From: a virus
Strand: one strand, 5' to 3'
Length of the DNA: 45,835 nucleotides
Virus record (IMG/VR): IMGVR_UViG_3300047334_000219
Coordinates: 1 to 45,835 of that record
Part shown: positions 138-28,807 of the stretch, in pieces
How the letters are laid out: each line of letters starts with the position of its first letter
Position numbering within the stretch: the first letter of the stretch is position 1
The notes under the pieces: model-generated
The model's database searches: none
Told to the model about the DNA's origin: nothing
Seen by the model: the letters and a program-made list of their open reading frames with translations, nothing else
Position numbers and translations under genes: made by a program

Positions 138-2550
138 TCGCCGAGGGATTTAGTGAAGGTACCGTGACCGTGCTTGCAACGTACTGAGCAGTTCCAGCCG
201 CATTTTCCCAATAGCAGATAAGTTTACCGTTAGTGTCAAGATTGTATTGCCACTCGGAATTGGAAGCATTGCCGCCCGCGTCCAAGAACTTGGAAACAAG
301 GAACACGCCCCCAGAAACGCCGCTAACATAGCTGCTCAGGTTGACCCAGATTGATACATCAAGGTATCCGTCTGTGACATCATTGGTCGTAAACGAAGTA
401 CAAGATGAGTTATAATTTCTGGCTCCGGGCAGGTTAAGGTAATGGATTGGTCCAGTTCCAGCCGCGGCTGTCGTGGCACTAACTTCTGCACTCATCAAGC
501 TTATGCCTGGTGTCGCGCCATTCAGAGCGACTGCTTCAAAATAGTAGGTAGTTGCGGTGCTCAATCCTGTGATGAGATACGGAAACTTGACGTTAGTTGC
601 GATAAGAGCTTCAGCGCCCGAAGACAGGGAGCCGTAGATGTTATAGCCCGTGATGGCCGAACCATTATTTGATGGAGCAGCGCCGGCGAAGTTGATTAGG
701 ATAGAGGTCGACGAAATCGGCGTAGCAACGATCACCGGAGCGTCTGGAGCGGCTGCTGACGCTGGGTTCTTCCAGGTTACCGACCGCACTTCACCCGCCG
801 TTAGAGTGAGACTTGTCGTCGCGCCGGCCGACTGCTGATCCTTGATTGTGACTGTCTGAGAGGCGGAACTGGAGTTATATATCACAGTTACGACGGAGCT
901 GTCCGGGTTTAGGAAGCTGACCGTCTGCACATCAGATCCTCCACGGCCGACCACGCCGAAAGTGGTTGAATTCACGCGCACGGCTCCAGCTTTAACCAGG
1001 GAAGAGATTTGCGCGAGTGCGTAGTACTGCGGAGTCAAGCTAACCGCGCCTGTCGTGCTGATGTTAGCAACAGGCTGAAGGTTGTCCGCCGGCCCGGGCT
1101 GACCGCTGGAGTCGAGGGCCAAGTTCCACATTAGGAGGGAAGACGAGCCGTAATACGGGGACGCAATCATATCGTCGCCCATGAACGCGTGCCAGTTGGT
1201 GGCGAAGGCCGCAGACCCCACTGCTGCGCTGCCAGCGCAATGCTCGGTGTGCAGGATAAGCTTACCCGATGCGGCGTAGGGTGCCATCTCGGCCATCTGC
1301 GAAGCGTTTCCGTCGTACGCATGGTAGGCTGCGCCCGCGAAGGCGGCAGCACCAGCCGCGCCACCCGTGGTGAAGGGGTAAAGTGACAGAGACTCGCTAT
1401 TCTGAACTGTGTCTCCCCAGGAGGTGTCGCCAGACAAGAGCATTGTTGTAATACCAGCGGCGGAAAAAGCCGCAGCTACGGCCTCCCCTAAGGCATTGAT
1501 GTCGATGCCGTTGAAGCGGCAACCAGGATAACCAGTCGGGTTGAAATTAGGCTCGTTTTGCAGCGTAGAGTAGTCGGAATACCGCCCAATTTGCGCAAAC
1601 AAAAACTGCTGATACTTAACGAAATAATTAGCATACTCCGTATTGTTCGCTGAGTTTTGGATGTAGTATACGGAGTTTGTAGTGTTGACAAGCGTCTTGG
1701 TCGTCTTGAAGTATGGCGGAGGCGACCAAGGCGCAACAACGATCTTGAGTGAAGGATTAATCGAGAGAACCAGATTTAGAATTGGGATTATGTTGGTCAA
1801 ATCTTGTGAAAACGAGATCGACGCTAGGCCATCGTCTGTCGTAGAATTGTCGTAGACCGAAAAGGCGTTGTTCGCCGCGCCCGTGCCATTGACGTTTCGG
1901 ATGGTGTAATCACAGTCTCCCATCGGCAAGCGGACAAAGCCGAATCCATCGGCGCCGAAGCGGGCCTGCAGGAAGGCTGTCCTCTGGGCCAGCGTCATAT
2001 TGTTCATCAGGACGTAGCAGGCGGAGTCGGTTAGGGCCGCACCCGCGCCAAGCCAAGTCTGATGCTGCGTGGATGTGTCGACCAGTATTTCCTTAGCGCC
2101 TGTGGTGCCCGATCCAGCCGCAAAGGGCGTCACAGCAGTCGGGGCGAGAAGGGCCGTCGTGAAGTCTTGGGTTGTCCTTAAAGACGTGGGCGGGATTAGA
2201 CTAGAGGCGCCTACAGCCCCCGTCGTCGGCGCAGCGCTCGCCACGCTCCCGGAGGCGTTCGTCGCCGTCTCGATATACATGAGCGTGTGGCCCAGATCGG
2301 CTGAGACGGGCGTGTAAGACGTCGTCGTCGCCCCGCTGATCGGCGCGCCGGTGTCGGCGTAAAACCATTGGCGGGTGATCGTGGGTGAGCCGGTATAGGT
2401 TCCAGGCGTGGCGACGACCGGCGCGCCGACCACGGGAGACGACGCGCTTAAGGTCGGCGCGCTGACTACGGTCGGCGGCGGCAAAAGCGTACCGCCAACT
2501 GCGACAGCATCCCCCATGGCCAAGCCTTGTCCTGTTGAGATCGGGGGCAT
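1..2550 (-). CDS. Tailspike with GH30 glycoside hydrolase domain (N-terminal 850 codons; continues at 45698)
   Basis: ATG at 2550 opens a frame without stops to base 1; it resumes at 45698 and ends at the TAG at 45435-45437, giving 937 aa. Upstream GGTGAG is a plausible ribosome site, 5 bases after the previous stop. Visible domains: an Ig-like fold (about 27-115); a GH30-type TIM barrel (about 150-590) with LGAGAALTDS, VRLPMGDCDYTIR and APWSPPPYFKTT; a fibronectin III-like domain (about 601-690, starting PDAPVIV); then a LamG-like sandwich. Likely catalytic residues are Glu333 in LQNEPNF (acid/base) and Glu436 in LHTEHC (nucleophile). Their 103-residue spacing is close to the 105 of human glucocerebrosidase (E235/E340). 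The setting downstream of the capsid genes suggests a virion depolymerase for a surface or biofilm polysaccharide. The sugar specificity cannot be told; GH30 covers glucosyl, xylosyl, galactosyl and fucosyl linkages. Confidence 0.85.
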   Translation of the reverse strand, partial: MPPISTGQGLAMGDAVAVGGTLLPPPTVVSAPTLSASSPVVGAPVVATPGTYTGSPTITRQWFYADTGAPISGATTTSYTPVSADLGHTLMYIETATNASGSVASAAPTTGAVGASSLIPPTSLRTTQDFTTALLAPTAVTPFAAGSGTTGAKEILVDTSTQHQTWLGAGAALTDSACYVLMNNMTLAQRTAFLQARFGADGFGFVRLPMGDCDYTIRNVNGTGAANNAFSVYDNSTTDDGLASISFSQDLTNIIPILNLVLSINPSLKIVVAPWSPPPYFKTTKTLVNTTNSVYYIQNSANNTEYANYFVKYQQFLFAQIGRYSDYSTLQNEPNFNPTGYPGCRFNGIDINALGEAVAAAFSAAGITTMLLSGDTSWGDTVQNSESLSLYPFTTGGAAGAAAFAGAAYHAYDGNASQMAEMAPYAASGKLILHTEHCAGSAAVGSAAFATNWHAFMGDDMIASPYYGSSSLLMWNLALDSSGQPGPADNLQPVANISTTGAVSLTPQYYALAQISSLVKAGAVRVNSTTFGVVGRGGSDVQTVSFLNPDSSVVTVIYNSSSASQTVTIKDQQSAGATTSLTLTAGEVRSVTWKNPASAAAPDAPVIVATPISSTSILINFAGAAPSNNGSAITGYNIYGSLSSGAEALIATNVKFPYLITGLSTATTYYFEAVALNGATPGISLMSAEVSATTAAAGTGPIHYLNLPGARNYNSSCTSFTTNDVTDGYLDVSIWVNLSSYVSGVSGGVFLVSKFLDAGGNASNSEWQYNLDTNGKLICYWENAAGTAQYVASTVTVPSLNPSATTGIWLRMQLNASASAVAPVSGPLASVPSGNVVFSTSADGATWSQL

Positions 2551-2554
2551 CGGC

Positions 2555-3037
2555 TCAGCTCACCAGCTTGGAGGTTATCGTTACGGAGTTCGAACCGGAA
2601 TTCAGCAAACGCACGCTGGCGCCCGCTGCGCCAGCGAAGATCACGACTCCCTGCATACCAGAAGCCGTCACGGGCGAGCCCACGGTCTGCCATGTCGTCC
2701 CGTCCGGACCAAGCACTTGGAGCGTGACGCTCGGCGACGTGCCTGAGAGGATGTAGGACCAGCCGTAAGTGGCGGATATTGAAACGGTGACCGGCGTAGA
2801 GTTGCCACCGGCTGGAATAACTTGAGAAGTAGCTAAAGTGTATGTTTGCTGAAGTCCGCTGCTGCCACTTGTGCATAGATTTCCGTATTGATCTGTAACT
2901 AGCGGACTGTTAGGCCCGAGCGGAACAGTATTTGTTCCGCACTTTGTTTGCGAAACAGCAGACTGCGCCCTCACACCTTCATGGGGTAGAAGGGCTAAAG
3001 CCAAGATACCACATAAAAGTGCAAGGGCTTTTTTCAC
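2555..3037 (-). CDS. Exported-looking 160-aa protein before the tailspike
   Basis: GTG at 3037, preceded by AAAGG about 8 bases upstream, is the only good start. Residues 1-25 form a classical Sec signal peptide: MKK, a hydrophobic run of Leu/Ala, and a likely signal peptidase I site after VRA. Two cysteines follow (in TKCGT and GNLCTS). The rest is Ser/Thr/Gly/Val-rich and beta-strand-like, resembling carbohydrate-binding or decoration folds. It sits between two head-region genes and the GH30 tailspike with 4-base gaps, so it is probably co-translated with them. A signal peptide on a protein in a structural cluster is unusual; it might coat the cell envelope or be a virion protein with a hydrophobic N-terminus. 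I do not recognise a family. Confidence 0.75.
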   Translation of the reverse strand: MKKALALLCGILALALLPHEGVRAQSAVSQTKCGTNTVPLGPNSPLVTDQYGNLCTSGSSGLQQTYTLATSQVIPAGGNSTPVTVSISATYGWSYILSGTSPSVTLQVLGPDGTTWQTVGSPVTASGMQGVVIFAGAAGASVRLLNSGSNSVTITSKLVS

Positions 3038-23556: not shown

Positions 23557-23623
23557 CCCGTCTGCGCAACCTGCATAGTGGTTGGGTTGGCGGGCTACCG
23601 CTTTTATTTCGTCGGGGGGAACA

Positions 23624-24868
23624 ATGACTACCGGACAATTCGCTTCAGTTGAAATCTCTTCAATTCAAATCATTCGTTCTGAACGTACCCGCCGGGAACT
23701 TCGGCCGGAAGATATTCGATCTCTCGCAGATTCAATTCGCGATCGAGGTCTAATCCATCCACCTCTTGTCACACGCGATCTAGTCCTGATCGCCGGAGAA
23801 ACTCGACTTGAGGCCTGCCGCAGTCTCGGATGGACTTCCATATCCGTCCAGTACGCAGATACCGCCGACCCGAAGGAACTTCTCGCTCTTGAACTCGAAG
23901 AGAATGTGAAGCGGAAGGATATATCTTGGCAAGATCAGGCCATCGCTCTAAAGCGGTTCCACGATCTTCAAAAGGAACTCCACCCCGACGGATGGTCAAC
24001 CTATAAAACAGCCGAAGCTATAAACCTTTCCCAAGCCTTCGTGTCTCAGCACATCGCCGTAGCAGAGGAACTAGAGTCCGGCAATGAAAGAGTTATTTCA
24101 GCCCCAAAGTTCTCCGTCGCTTCCGGCATCACTTCTAGAGTTAGAGAACGCCGAGCGGCTGACGAGCTTGCTTCTTTGGGGACCGGTTTGGATAAAGGTT
24201 CGAGTTCAATCCTCACCGCAGATTTTCTTTCTTGGGTTGAGTCCTATTCAGGACCTTCGTTCAATCTTATCCACTGCGACTTTCCCTACGGAATAGGTGC
24301 GGATACTTTTAACCAGGCTTCGGCCGATCTCCGCGGAGGATATGATGATACTCCAGAGACGTACTTTACGCTTCTTGAAACTCTGTGTAGAAATAGAGAT
24401 AAACTCATGGGTGAATCAGGTCATCTTATCTTCTGGTTTTCCATGCAGCACTATTCAAAAACGCTCGACATACTCAACAACTATTTTCGAGTGGAAAGTT
24501 ACCCTCTTGTTTGGCATAAGTCGGACAATAAGGGCACTCTTCCAGACCCAACCAGGGGTCCCCGCCGTGTTTACGAAGTCGCCTTCTTTGCCTCGCATGG
24601 AGATAGAAAAATACTTCAGTCTGTCGCTAACACATTCTCAGGCCCGACAGTTAGGTCGGCGGATCACATGAGTGAAAAGTCTCAAGACATGCTTGAGCAC
24701 TTCTTCCGCATGGTCGTGGACAGTAAAACCAGAATTTTAGATCCGACCTGCGGAAGCGGTTCAGCAATCCGGGCAGCGAAGCGCCTCGGCGCCGAGTTCT
24801 TTCTTGGTCTAGAAAAGAATCCCGACTTCGCCTCCGCCGCGCAAAAGGCTTTGAAAGAAAATGTCTGA
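23624..24868 (+). CDS. ParB-like domain fused to DNA methyltransferase
   Basis: 414 aa from ATG 23624 (GGGGGAACA leader). Residues about 1-100 are ParB/Srx-like (LIAGETRLEACRSLGW; ELEENVKRKDISWQDQAIAL), followed by an HTH-like stretch (TAEAINLSQAFVSQHIAVAEE). The methyltransferase part has motif IV as IHCDFPYG and motif I as DPTCGSGSAIRAAKRL near the C-terminus: IV before I is the beta-class order of CcrM-like enzymes, modifying adenine N6 or cytosine N4. The DFPYG motif is a variant of DPPY. It may protect phage DNA or mark specific sites. Overlaps the next gene by 8 bases. Confidence 0.85.
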   Translation: MTTGQFASVEISSIQIIRSERTRRELRPEDIRSLADSIRDRGLIHPPLVTRDLVLIAGETRLEACRSLGWTSISVQYADTADPKELLALELEENVKRKDISWQDQAIALKRFHDLQKELHPDGWSTYKTAEAINLSQAFVSQHIAVAEELESGNERVISAPKFSVASGITSRVRERRAADELASLGTGLDKGSSSILTADFLSWVESYSGPSFNLIHCDFPYGIGADTFNQASADLRGGYDDTPETYFTLLETLCRNRDKLMGESGHLIFWFSMQHYSKTLDILNNYFRVESYPLVWHKSDNKGTLPDPTRGPRRVYEVAFFASHGDRKILQSVANTFSGPTVRSADHMSEKSQDMLEHFFRMVVDSKTRILDPTCGSGSAIRAAKRLGAEFFLGLEKNPDFASAAQKALKENV

Positions 24869-25892
24869 CACATTCCGCATAGCGATCATCGGAGAGGCCT
24901 ATGGCGAAACAGAAGAGCAATACAGACTCCCGTTCGTTGGACATGCCGGACAGGAACTCACCCGAATCCTTGCCGACGCCGGAATTTCTCGTTCCCATTG
25001 TTTCATCACTAACACATTTAACCTGCGACCTGCCCACAACGATATTGAAACTCTTTGCGTGCCGAAAAGTTCTCCTGATCGTATTCCGGGGAGAGGTCCG
25101 TTTGCTCCGGGCAAGTATTTCAGACAGGAGTATTATCCGGAGATTGCTCGTCTGTATAGCGAACTGGAAGCAGTCAGACCTAACGTTGCAGTGTTACTGG
25201 GAAACACAGCCTGTTGGGCTTTACTTGACAGAACCTCCATCTCTAAAATACGAGGAACAGTTTCGTATTCACCTATTCTTCCCTGGCTCAAATGTCTCCC
25301 AACCTACCACCCGGCAGCAATCCTTCGTCAATATGATCTGCGCCATGTTACAGTACTCGACTTCGTAAAAGCGAAGTTAGAGTCAGAGTTTCCCGAAGTC
25401 CGCCGTCCCAGACGGGAAATTTGGATAGAGCCGGAAGTCGAAGATATACACCTTTTCAAGAAAGATTATATAGATGGCTGTAAAGTCCTTTCCTTCGACA
25501 TCGAAACAGCTTTTGAAGAAATCACTTGCATTGGTTTTTCTCCTTCTATTGACCGCGCTTTGGTTGTTCCTTTTGTGGACGTCCGAAAACCTGGATGCAA
25601 TTATTTCCAAACTTTTGAAGAAGAGCTTTCCGCTTGGAGCGCTGTAGCAGATATCCTTTCCGGCCCCGAGCCGAAAGTCGGCCAGAATGGTCTTTACGAT
25701 ATCCAGTACCTTTGGATGAAATACGGAATCCCTGTTAATAACTATTGCGAAGATACCATGCTTCTTCACCATAGTTTATTTCCAGAGTCTCCAAAGGGAC
25801 TTGACTTCCTTGGCAGTGTTTACACAAATGAAGCTGCTTGGAAGACTGAGCGACCGAGAGGAAAGCACACTATTAAAAGGGAAGATGAATAA
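24861..25892 (+). CDS. Uracil-DNA glycosylase domain fused to the first half of a 3'-5' exonuclease
   Basis: 343 aa from ATG 24861. Residues 1-175: family 4-type UDG with IIGEAYGETEEQYRLPFVGHAG, TNTFNLRP and a C-terminal CLPTYHPAAILR. The cysteines of the Fe-S cluster in classical family 4 are not all present (NLRP replaces KCRPP), so activity is uncertain. Residues about 205-330: DnaQ-type exonuclease with Exo I (SFDIETAF) and Exo II (GQNGLYDIQYL). Exo III is not here; it begins the next-but-one gene (26146). In related phages these parts are one polypeptide with the polymerase. The stop overlaps the next start (TAATG). Confidence 0.85.
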   Translation: MSDTFRIAIIGEAYGETEEQYRLPFVGHAGQELTRILADAGISRSHCFITNTFNLRPAHNDIETLCVPKSSPDRIPGRGPFAPGKYFRQEYYPEIARLYSELEAVRPNVAVLLGNTACWALLDRTSISKIRGTVSYSPILPWLKCLPTYHPAAILRQYDLRHVTVLDFVKAKLESEFPEVRRPRREIWIEPEVEDIHLFKKDYIDGCKVLSFDIETAFEEITCIGFSPSIDRALVVPFVDVRKPGCNYFQTFEEELSAWSAVADILSGPEPKVGQNGLYDIQYLWMKYGIPVNNYCEDTMLLHHSLFPESPKGLDFLGSVYTNEAAWKTERPRGKHTIKREDE

Positions 25893-26149
25893 TGCCTGCA
25901 GGCCGCCCGTCAAACGTCTACGGAAGAGTTAATCCTGACAGCGGATTAACTACCTATGGGGAAATTCTCTACTTCATGGAAGCTGGTCGATGGTATAGCG
26001 CTACGGAATTGAAAGAGTGCGTTCCGCAGTTATCGACCGAAAGGGTTCTTTCTCTTTTAAGAGGCATGGCTTCAAAAGGAATGTTAGAAGAAATAAAAAA
26101 TACTTCTCCATATCCTCAAACTAGGGTATTCTGGAGAAAAATTGTATGA
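25892..26149 (+). CDS. Small winged-helix-like protein inserted between the two polymerase parts, 85 aa
   Basis: ATG 25892 overlaps the preceding stop (TAATG) and its own stop overlaps the polymerase start (ATGA). The sequence TYGEILYFMEAGRWYSATELK, followed by LSTERVLSLLRGMASKGMLEE, reads as a winged helix-turn-helix; the basic N-terminus (MPAGRPSNVYG) may contact DNA. No endonuclease (HNH, GIY-YIG) motif is visible, so it is not an obvious homing element. It may act as a bridging or regulatory subunit. Confidence 0.7.
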   Translation: MPAGRPSNVYGRVNPDSGLTTYGEILYFMEAGRWYSATELKECVPQLSTERVLSLLRGMASKGMLEEIKNTSPYPQTRVFWRKIV

Positions 26150-27645
26150 GAAAATACTTCACCGATGGAAGCGAGAATCTTCCAGCTTCTGGCGCAACGG
26201 AAAAGCTTTGGATCTACAACGGTTTAGACTGTTGCGTAACCCTTGAAGTTCTTAACGCAGTTAAACCCCAGCTTAACGAAGTCACTTCTAGAGTCTACGA
26301 CTTCGCCAGAGCCCTCCAGGCCCCGATCCTCGAAATGGAATGTCGGGGACTTCTTGTAGACAAAAGCAAAAGGAACGAAGTTTATGAGCAACTATCTTTA
26401 CAACTCAAGATCGTTCACGATTCGCTTGCTGAAATCCTGTCTGAAGGTCTTGGAGTTGAAAACCTTAACCCCTCTTCCCCAGCTCAACTCAAACAGCTCT
26501 TCTATGAAACACTTGGACTTCCTCCTGTCCGAAATAGAAAAGGAGTTACAACGGATAGAAAAGCTCTCGAACGACTCCGAGGATACTTCCAAGCCGAGTG
26601 CATCTGCAACCACATTCTCCTCATCCGAGATATCAATAAAAAGCTTGGAGTTCTACGTACAGGCATTGATTCCGATGGAAGGATCAGAACGTCATATAAC
26701 ATTGCTGGCACCGATACCGGAAGACTATCTTCCTACGCTTCAGCATTTGGCTCGGGAACAAATTTACAAAACATTACCGGAGAACTCCGCTACATCTTCG
26801 TCGCCGATCCAGGAAAAAAGCTCGCCTACATCGACCTCGAACAAGCCGAGTCGAGAGCAGTTGGAGCTATTATATGGAACCTCTTCCGCGACGGCCGATA
26901 CCTCGACGCCTGCGAAAGTGGAGACTTACACACAATGGTCTGCCAGCTTTGCTGGCAGGACCTCCCATGGACTTCCGATCCAAGCGAAAATAAACTCATT
27001 GCCAAACAACCGTTCTACCGCCATTTCGACTATCGCGATGCCGCTAAGCGTCTTGGGCACGCTACTAATTACTTTGGAAAACCACCGCACATCGCGAAAG
27101 AGGTTCATATTCCTCAGCCGCTCGTCGAGCAATTCCAGCAGAAATATCTTCCAGCTTTCGGGATTAGTACATGGCACAACTGGGTACGTAGTAAACTTTT
27201 TCGAGATGGATTCATCAACACTTTTATGGGACGCCATCGTTGGTTTTTTGGCAGAAGGACAGACAGCGAAACAATCCGGGCCGCAATTGCGTTTGAACCT
27301 CAAAGTGCTGTCGCAGATTATCTCAACCGAGGATTATTTCAAGTGTGGAGATCTAACCTTGTTGAACTTAATCTCCAGGTGCACGATGCAATAGTATTCC
27401 AATACCCGGAGGAAAAAGAAAATGAGATAATTCCTCAAGTCCAGAAGCTTCTCGAGATAGAAATCCCCCTCATGCACGGTCGATCTTTCCGCATACCTAC
27501 CGAAGCTTTTGTAGGTTGGAATTGGTCGTATTCCCGCAACGCGAAGAAAGAGTTAATCAATCCCGATGGCCTCGAGCTTTTCACAGGAAACGATACCAGG
27601 AAACGCTCAACGCCGACTTCATTCCTTCATCGACGGTTTTCTTGA
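26146..27645 (+). CDS. Family A DNA polymerase, with Exo III motif at its N-terminus
   Basis: 499 aa from ATG 26146. The start carries WIYNGLDCCVTLEV, the exonuclease Exo III motif (Y-x3-D) that completes the split 3'-5' domain of the 24861 gene. Polymerase motifs: DTGRLSSYASAFGSGTNLQN; motif A YIDLEQAESRAVG; motif B RDAAKRLGHATNYFGKP; motif C LQVHDAIVFQY (catalytic Asp kept, usual Glu is Ala). It replicates the phage DNA. The gene overlaps the next one by 80 bases. The residues between the Exo pieces are missing from both ORFs and lie at a loop. Confidence 0.9.
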   Translation: MRKYFTDGSENLPASGATEKLWIYNGLDCCVTLEVLNAVKPQLNEVTSRVYDFARALQAPILEMECRGLLVDKSKRNEVYEQLSLQLKIVHDSLAEILSEGLGVENLNPSSPAQLKQLFYETLGLPPVRNRKGVTTDRKALERLRGYFQAECICNHILLIRDINKKLGVLRTGIDSDGRIRTSYNIAGTDTGRLSSYASAFGSGTNLQNITGELRYIFVADPGKKLAYIDLEQAESRAVGAIIWNLFRDGRYLDACESGDLHTMVCQLCWQDLPWTSDPSENKLIAKQPFYRHFDYRDAAKRLGHATNYFGKPPHIAKEVHIPQPLVEQFQQKYLPAFGISTWHNWVRSKLFRDGFINTFMGRHRWFFGRRTDSETIRAAIAFEPQSAVADYLNRGLFQVWRSNLVELNLQVHDAIVFQYPEEKENEIIPQVQKLLEIEIPLMHGRSFRIPTEAFVGWNWSYSRNAKKELINPDGLELFTGNDTRKRSTPTSFLHRRFS

Positions 27646-28807
27646 ACTGACAGACGGTATCCAGTCGCCGCTTCTTTTTAGAAAGTGGGCTGCGATCTAC
27701 ACCGTCGCTTCTGTTCTTGAAAGAAAAGTCTGGATAAAAACTCGGCGTGGACCTATGTATCCAAACTTGTATGTCCTTCTCGTCGGAGGTCCAGGGATAG
27801 GTAAGTCTGAATCTCTTCACCAGGTAATGAAACTTCTAGACTCCGTCCCGGATATATTCCTTGCCCCAAGTTCTGTATCTCGAGCATCGCTTATCGATGA
27901 ACTTTCGGAGGCCCATCGGCAAATTCTTCGGCCGATGGACACGCCCCCGCTCACACAGTTTAACTCTCTCAGCGTCGTTGCCTCAGAGTTCGGAACATTC
28001 CTATCCGCTTACGATGGGGAGTTCATGTCTACCCTTAACCATCTATTCGACTGCGAACGCTATAAAGAAAAGAAGCGGTCGATGAAGAATAAGATAGAGA
28101 TGCCTAATCCCCAGCTCAATATAATTGCCGGAACAACTCCAGCTTGGCTCGGAGCATCCCTTCCTCCGACAGCTTGGTCAGAGGGTTTCGCTTCCCGCCT
28201 TATCATGATTTACTCGGGCGAGCGAGTTAGGATAGATATGTTTGCAGATGCGGAGTCTGACGAAGCAATTCGGTCCGCTTGTATAGAAGACTTAAAATCT
28301 ATTTTTGAAATGTTCGGCCAGTTTGTCTTCACCCCGGACGTTGCGGAAGCTTTCTATGCATGGCAGGAACTTGACTTCGCACCTGTGCCAGACCATCCAA
28401 AATTAGAACACTATATTCCTCGCCGCCACACACATTTTTTGAAAATCTGTATGGTAATGTCTGCGGCTAGATCTTCCGAACTTATAATCCGTATGGAAGA
28501 CTACCAAAAAGCTATGGACTTTTTTCTTGAAGCTGAGGCAGAAATGCCAGAAGTCTTCAAAGCGCTTCGGTATAACTCTGATGGAAACGTCATAGACGAA
28601 GCTTTTAATTTTGTATACACTACTTTCGCGAAAGAAAATAAACCTATTTCAGAACACAGAATAATGAACTTTCTTCTTCAGCGTATGCCCGCGCACAATG
28701 TCGCCAAGTGTCTCGACATAATGCTACAATCGGGGATCATTGAAGTAGCTGAAATCGGAAAAGGTCTTGGCGGGAGGAATACATATCGACCTCCCGCCAA
28801 GCGTTAG
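27566..28807 (+). CDS. DUF3987-like ATPase (replicative helicase/primase type)
   Basis: 413 aa from ATG 27566, which lies inside the 3' end of the polymerase gene; the frame is well supported downstream. Walker A VGGPGIGKSESL at about 73-84; a mixed-charge segment after it (VSRASLIDELSEAHRQ) and a region with NPQLNIIAGTTPAWL and FASRLIMIYSGERV resemble DUF3987/DnaB-like phage proteins that load or unwind DNA at the fork. C-terminal helices could bind primase. It ends the early arm; its stop overlaps the opposing spanin stop. Confidence 0.75.
   Translation: MASSFSQETIPGNAQRRLHSFIDGFLELTDGIQSPLLFRKWAAIYTVASVLERKVWIKTRRGPMYPNLYVLLVGGPGIGKSESLHQVMKLLDSVPDIFLAPSSVSRASLIDELSEAHRQILRPMDTPPLTQFNSLSVVASEFGTFLSAYDGEFMSTLNHLFDCERYKEKKRSMKNKIEMPNPQLNIIAGTTPAWLGASLPPTAWSEGFASRLIMIYSGERVRIDMFADAESDEAIRSACIEDLKSIFEMFGQFVFTPDVAEAFYAWQELDFAPVPDHPKLEHYIPRRHTHFLKICMVMSAARSSELIIRMEDYQKAMDFFLEAEAEMPEVFKALRYNSDGNVIDEAFNFVYTTFAKENKPISEHRIMNFLLQRMPAHNVAKCLDIMLQSGIIEVAEIGKGLGGRNTYRPPAKR
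28766..28801 (-). terminator. Terminator hairpin at the end of the late arm
   Basis: CTTGGCGGGAGG (28766-28777) and CCTCCCGCCAAG (28790-28801), a perfect 12-bp stem with a 12-base loop. On the minus strand it is 2 bases after the spanin stop and is followed by ACCTTTTCC; on the plus strand there is no T-run. It sits inside the 3' end of the opposing early gene, so it must end late transcripts without blocking that gene's coding. Confidence 0.7.

Follow-up and report, generated by a model that had tools for sequence, protein, structure and literature searches.

A family A phage DNA polymerase split between Exo II and Exo III throughout a viral clade, with a slot for replaceable genes at the junction

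The window we analysed is the whole of a 45.8-kb virus contig (IMG/VR record IMGVR_UViG_3300047334_000219; 45,835 nucleotides), on which head, terminase, adaptor, tail, helicase and primase genes are found. Its DNA polymerase is encoded in two pieces, which we call the N and C halves, and an 85-aa ORF lies between them. The features of this locus are the following.

24861..25892, + strand: predicted N subunit, 343 aa, with a UDG-like domain (aa 4-159) and the front of the 3'-5' exonuclease; ends in TIKREDE and a stop, as gapless relatives do
25497..25508, + strand: Exo I DIET (D213, E215; D213-T216); invariant alignment columns, with D-x-E in all N halves that are long enough
25686..25700, + strand: Exo II NGLYD (N276, D280); D in 115/115 split loci
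25878..25884, + strand: putative Shine-Dalgarno-like AGGGAAG upstream of the 85-aa ORF, from reading the sequence
25892..26149, + strand: 85-aa ORF exactly at the N/C junction; lineage-specific cargo and, very tentatively, a winged helix
26133..26136, + strand: putative Shine-Dalgarno-like GGAG upstream of the C subunit, likewise read by eye
26146..27645, + strand: predicted C subunit, 499 aa, with a conserved start segment, the Exo III helix and the polymerase domain
26215..26229, + strand: Exo III YNGLD (Y24, D28); Y and D in 115/115 split loci
26833..26856, + strand: polymerase motif A, DLEQAESR (catalytic D230)
27034..27072, + strand: polymerase motif B, R297...K301...H305...Y309, with His at the E. 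coli 762 position
27382..27390, + strand: polymerase motif C, HDA (catalytic D414; Ala replaces Glu of the usual HDE)

The start codon of the 85-aa ORF falls within the TAA of the N ORF (TAATG), and the C ORF starts in an ATGA overlap with the stop of the 85-aa ORF, exactly as the initial annotation had described. These codon overlaps, together with the Shine-Dalgarno-like sites, suggest that the cistrons are translationally coupled. Immediately upstream, an ORF at 23582-24868 fuses a ParB-like N-terminal domain (PF02195) to a DNA N6/N4 methyltransferase (PF01555) and runs 8 bases into the polymerase N half; several relatives also have annotated ParB-like or methyltransferase genes upstream of the polymerase.

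In regard to domain content, the PHROG 17 profile (phage DNA polymerase) matches the first ORF over profile positions 480-789 and the third over 804-1243. Because the two matches follow in series, both ORFs are pieces of one protein. The DnaQ-like DEDDy set of the exonuclease (Exo I D-x-E, Exo II D, Exo III Y-x3-D) is complete only when both chains are counted, with D213, E215 and D280 on N and Y24 and D28 on C. The proposal that the polymerase is split inside its exonuclease domain thus holds, with Exo I and Exo II (DIET at D213-T216 and N276GLYD280) in the first ORF and Exo III (Y24NGLD28) near the start of the third.

The N ORF also matches the Pfam UDG family (PF03167, residues 4-159, E 3.5e-20) and TIGR00758 (E 8e-25, below the curated cutoff), and its GExxGE and HP motifs, which are mostly conserved, place the domain, at window positions 24861-25337, in the UDG superfamily. 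Family 4 UDGs hold a four-Cys iron-sulphur cluster with an N-terminal CxxC. We found no N-terminal CxxC in the N ORF, which begins about 10 residues ahead of GEAYGE, and we therefore call the domain UDG-like rather than filing it under family 4. Judging from these motifs, it may serve in uracil sensing or binding rather than excision.

The C ORF carries a DNA_pol_A domain (PF00476, E 4.1e-32). When C halves are aligned to Taq/Klenow, D230 of motif A and D414 of motif C are conserved across the split loci, and this domain and these catalytic aspartates identify a family A polymerase. At the position of E. coli Pol I Phe762, 113/113 readable split loci and 16/17 unsplit relatives have His. A virioplankton survey describes Phe, Tyr and Leu types at this position, and the portion of it covered by a term search gives no histidine there (PMC6302109). 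Motif C reads HDA in the window and HDS in other members, where Pol I usually has HDE, and this is consistent clade-wide.

Relatives are numerous and almost all metagenomic. With the C half as query, 80 loci were found in IMG/VR, and an alignment search gave at least 588 confirmed relatives; the corresponding search of viral contigs with the N half returned none, its patterns being too specific, and a plasmid search returned distant Pol I matches only. We fetched 177 loci, of which 135 had both halves after removal of duplicates; 18 of these are fused and 117 split. Two of the split loci, L088 and L105, are independent cases, and without them 115 distinct loci remain, the window included. In all 115 the cut falls at one and the same place, with Exo II before it and Exo III after it, and no fused polymerase gene was found among them. 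The split loci also group together: the 31 sampled split rows form one clade in a 43-row tree (UFBoot/SH-aLRT 95/87; 96% of 200 bootstrap trees), as do 67 split rows in an 84-row tree (SH-aLRT 98). Unsplit polymerases, including that of MW202489, fall outside this clade. The unsplit polymerases of MW202489, Microcystis phage Mel-JY34 and Desulfofustis phage LS06-2018-MD01 share the domain order and exonuclease residues of the window, whereas each is a single ORF of about 780-830 aa. As in the window, a DUF3987/primase gene comes next after the polymerase in Mel-JY34 and the Desulfofustis phage.

The one isolate in the clade, Caulobacter phage Kuura, was the sole member found among annotated phage records and has the same split. 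Kuura is plaque-forming both at room temperature and at 4 C, with a titre as high as about 2e10 pfu/mL (PMC9959647), so the split is compatible with a productive phage. The Kuura N protein is WCD44107.1 and its C protein WCD44104.1; the N half is annotated as a 'hypothetical protein', which illustrates how the exonuclease may be overlooked in phages of this kind. Furthermore, both halves are under strong purifying selection, with dN/dS of about 0.02-0.25 in pairs of near relatives for which dS is not saturated. Conservation of the split across the clade and constraint on both halves are thus shown by computation. The locus presents one ancestral enzyme as two conserved parts that, as read from the ORFs, are separately translated, in the manner of genes in pieces.

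The explanation we favour, with considerable confidence, is a two-subunit family A replicative polymerase whose proofreading site is formed in trans and whose junction is an insertion slot. N, with the UDG-like domain, Exo I and Exo II, and C, with the Exo III helix and polymerase domain, would be made from adjacent, translationally coupled cistrons, and the two chains would fold together. The Exo I Asp/Glu and Exo II Asp would come from N and the Exo III Tyr/Asp from C. The cut would lie in a flexible surface loop and, once the gene was split, the boundary would have tolerated added genes and become a slot.

A structure model agrees with the placement of the cut. In one relative, L038, the halves share a frame with a single TGA between them, which we read as a residue for AF2, using 73 aligned rows that included the window halves and left out rows from annotated phage records. 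The read-through model has a pLDDT of 93.3 and a pTM of 0.89, and its only stretch below pLDDT 50 is residues 325-342, bracketing the stop at 336. VIA-align superimposes it on Bst Pol I with Z 31 and an rmsd of about 3.2 over about 540 residues; the alignment spans model residues 177-825, across the cut, and so identifies the Pol I fold for L038 rather than for the window itself. Because low confidence is confined to the junction, the cut would sit in a flexible loop, the remainder of the protein being a typical exonuclease-polymerase. This one-chain model shows that the halves are compatible; association of the separate chains, and activity of the resulting enzyme, we infer as a further step.

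Alternatively, the halves may work apart, C as a stand-alone polymerase devoid of proofreading and N as a stand-alone UDG/exonuclease. The presence of separate ORFs in every member is what such an arrangement would look like, but it leaves the pattern of constraint unaccounted for: the Exo III Tyr and Asp on C are invariant in the 115 loci, as are the Exo I and Exo II residues on N (for Exo I, in every N half long enough to include the site), and each set is useless alone. The N and C genes also remain adjacent, and the predicted L038 structure is a single exonuclease-polymerase fold. We consider separate action distinctly unlikely.

The junction itself is variable. In 25 loci the N-C gap is shorter than 60 bp and the junction is usually an ATGA or TAATG overlap; in such gapless loci the N half ends like TIKRDE and the C half begins like MKIINT. 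The window halves end and start alike (TIKREDE and stop; MRKYFT), and the 85-aa ORF therefore occupies precisely the space between two intact cistrons. In other loci the gap extends to about 2.3 kb and is filled by unrelated genes, among them DUF7768 proteins, HNH or LAGLIDADG-like endonucleases, methyltransferases, and HAD, MazG and HTH proteins. The commonest occupant is DUF7768 (nucleoside 2-deoxyribosyltransferase-like), present in 27 loci (L016, L020, L021, L022 and 23 others). An HNH-endonuclease cluster occupies the slot in seven loci, HNH_3 is found in that of L032, L035, L036, L054, L058 and L064, and L066 has a LAGLIDADG-like endonuclease (phrog_5046). Profile searches found no endonuclease gene at the split in the window, so the remark that its insert lacks a homing-nuclease motif is true of this phage, while such endonucleases do occur in the slot of relatives. 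The tree implies at least 12 switches between occupied and empty junctions, and nearly identical phages can differ in this alone: an insert of roughly 220 bp in L163 is absent in L164, and one of roughly 310 bp in L150 is absent in L165. The L163 insert has the C-terminal sequence VKRDE, an echo of the N-half end. Our computations thus show that the N/C boundary is a slot accepting replaceable genes.

The 85-aa ORF is the present occupant of this slot, not a conserved subunit. It has no family match in Pfam, PHROG or other profile searches and no homologues, viral contigs included. It was seen only in this phage, and its AF2 model (pLDDT 52.6) is too poor for structure search. In the nearest relatives, L005 and L006, this gap contains a winged helix of TrmB/MarR type, 68 aa long (PF01978, E 2e-6 for L005). 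MAFFT aligns the window ORF to this protein at 24-27% identity, but phmmer finds nothing in either direction, and we therefore claim no homology. For the 85-aa ORF itself, the earlier label 'winged-helix-like' is weak.

It had also been proposed that the neat overlaps reflect a working three-subunit arrangement. The 85-aa ORF would then be a genuine third subunit, such as a winged helix that binds DNA and bridges the halves. The exact overlaps on both sides of the ORF and the winged helix of the nearest relatives suit this proposal. However, the 25 gapless relatives have no insert, others have unrelated genes in its place, the 85-aa ORF has no detectable homology to the L005/L006 protein, and inserts have been gained and lost repeatedly. 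Since relatives lack the insert or have something else in its place, we reject a three-subunit complex as very unlikely. The word 'working' fares better, given the clade-fixed split, the retained catalytic residues and the low dN/dS.

The gapless loci also bear on whether a full-length polymerase could be restored by intron splicing, programmed frameshifting, ribosome hopping or protein splicing, which we judge extremely unlikely. Phage DNA polymerase genes can hold introns (literature cited in PMC10580990), and 19 of the 25 gapless junctions are in the -1 relative frame (ATGA/TAATG), which a frameshift could bridge. Yet all three relative frames occur, gaps run from 0 to 2.4 kb and many contain complete genes, the ORFs have proper starts and stops, and gapless ends carry no additional intein-like sequence. 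Rfam searches gave no intron match in window positions 24000-28000 up to E 1 and, at gathering score, none in a set of 25 loci; a gapless junction is too short to contain an intron, and we rejected a group I or II intron on these grounds. Finally, gene decay or a sequencing or assembly error deserves practically no credence, as the initial annotation had argued: the contig is metagenomic and L057, L060, L072 and L077 have stops or a frame break within the C half, but the split recurs in 115 distinct loci from many samples and in the isolate Kuura, with low dN/dS and invariant catalytic residues.

How the two-subunit polymerase could have arisen is suggested by L105. At the same loop, L105 has a 142-aa ORF matching HNH endonuclease phrog_3377 (E 8e-28), which starts directly after the N stop and whose end is overlapped by the GTG start of the C half. 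L105 lies within the unsplit clade (100/94 with L102) and is 76% identical to unsplit L100. Here a mobile endonuclease has probably split a polymerase gene, which suggests how the main-clade split could have arisen. The ancestral event would have been either an endonuclease insertion as in L105 or a plain fission followed by invasion, and the gapless members could represent the original state or have since lost an endonuclease.

Split phage polymerases as such are already known; the cut site, its fixation across a clade and the insertion slot look new, and we found no description of this clade's split in the open-licence literature. The closest parallel is in the OM43 phages MEP401 and MEP402, where, as in most of their phage group, a family A polymerase occupies two ORFs with a small ORF of unknown function between them (PMC10580990). 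In those phages the exonuclease and a portion of the polymerase domain are together in the first ORF, and the authors considered an intron as a possibility (PMC10580990). That arrangement resembles the window clade in its two ORFs and small intervening ORF, but the cut lies inside the polymerase domain rather than between Exo II and Exo III; in the window clade, moreover, the N half has a UDG-like domain, an intron is ruled out by the gapless members and the inserted gene can be exchanged. In the T4-related Aeromonas phages 25 and 44RR, gp43 is made as 43A and 43B, which co-purify with activity and whose genes are separated by a homing endonuclease (seg) or an untranslated spacer (reviewed in PMC2988022). 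Here too a phage replicative polymerase would consist of two polypeptides, although gp43 is a family B, T4-like enzyme and the window clade has a family A enzyme with another cut site, fixation in a large clade and many cargo types. In Aeh1 NrdA, the HNH endonuclease mobE interrupts an essential gene and the two chains form a working enzyme (reviewed in PMC2988022). L105 is the polymerase counterpart of this system; NrdA is a ribonucleotide reductase, and the window slot differs in having no endonuclease.

Earlier split phage polymerases were described one phage group at a time, whereas here a divided proofreading site is fixed in a large, mostly uncultured clade, with Kuura as a plaque-forming isolate to work on. 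The pairs of occupied and empty junctions, together with L105, offer a direct test of how a mobile endonuclease might convert a single essential gene into a lasting two-subunit enzyme with a cargo slot. The split could even be adaptive and not just a scar that is tolerated: in the manner of DnaQ with DnaE, the UDG-exonuclease chain would be a dissociable proofreading subunit of a family A phage replicase, and the slot gene would adjust its proportion to the polymerase chain. We think this unlikely; if true, a cargo swap could change proofreading or uracil handling.

Two further loci look like independent splits at other points and were left out of the clade. In L088 (MW202554, about 2500-3000) the cut lies just past Exo III and the gap has a possible NrdR-like zinc-ribbon frame, and in L085 (Vibrio phage VS-ABTNL-3, MF497422, 3300-4400) the polymerase domain is interrupted by a 184-aa ORF.
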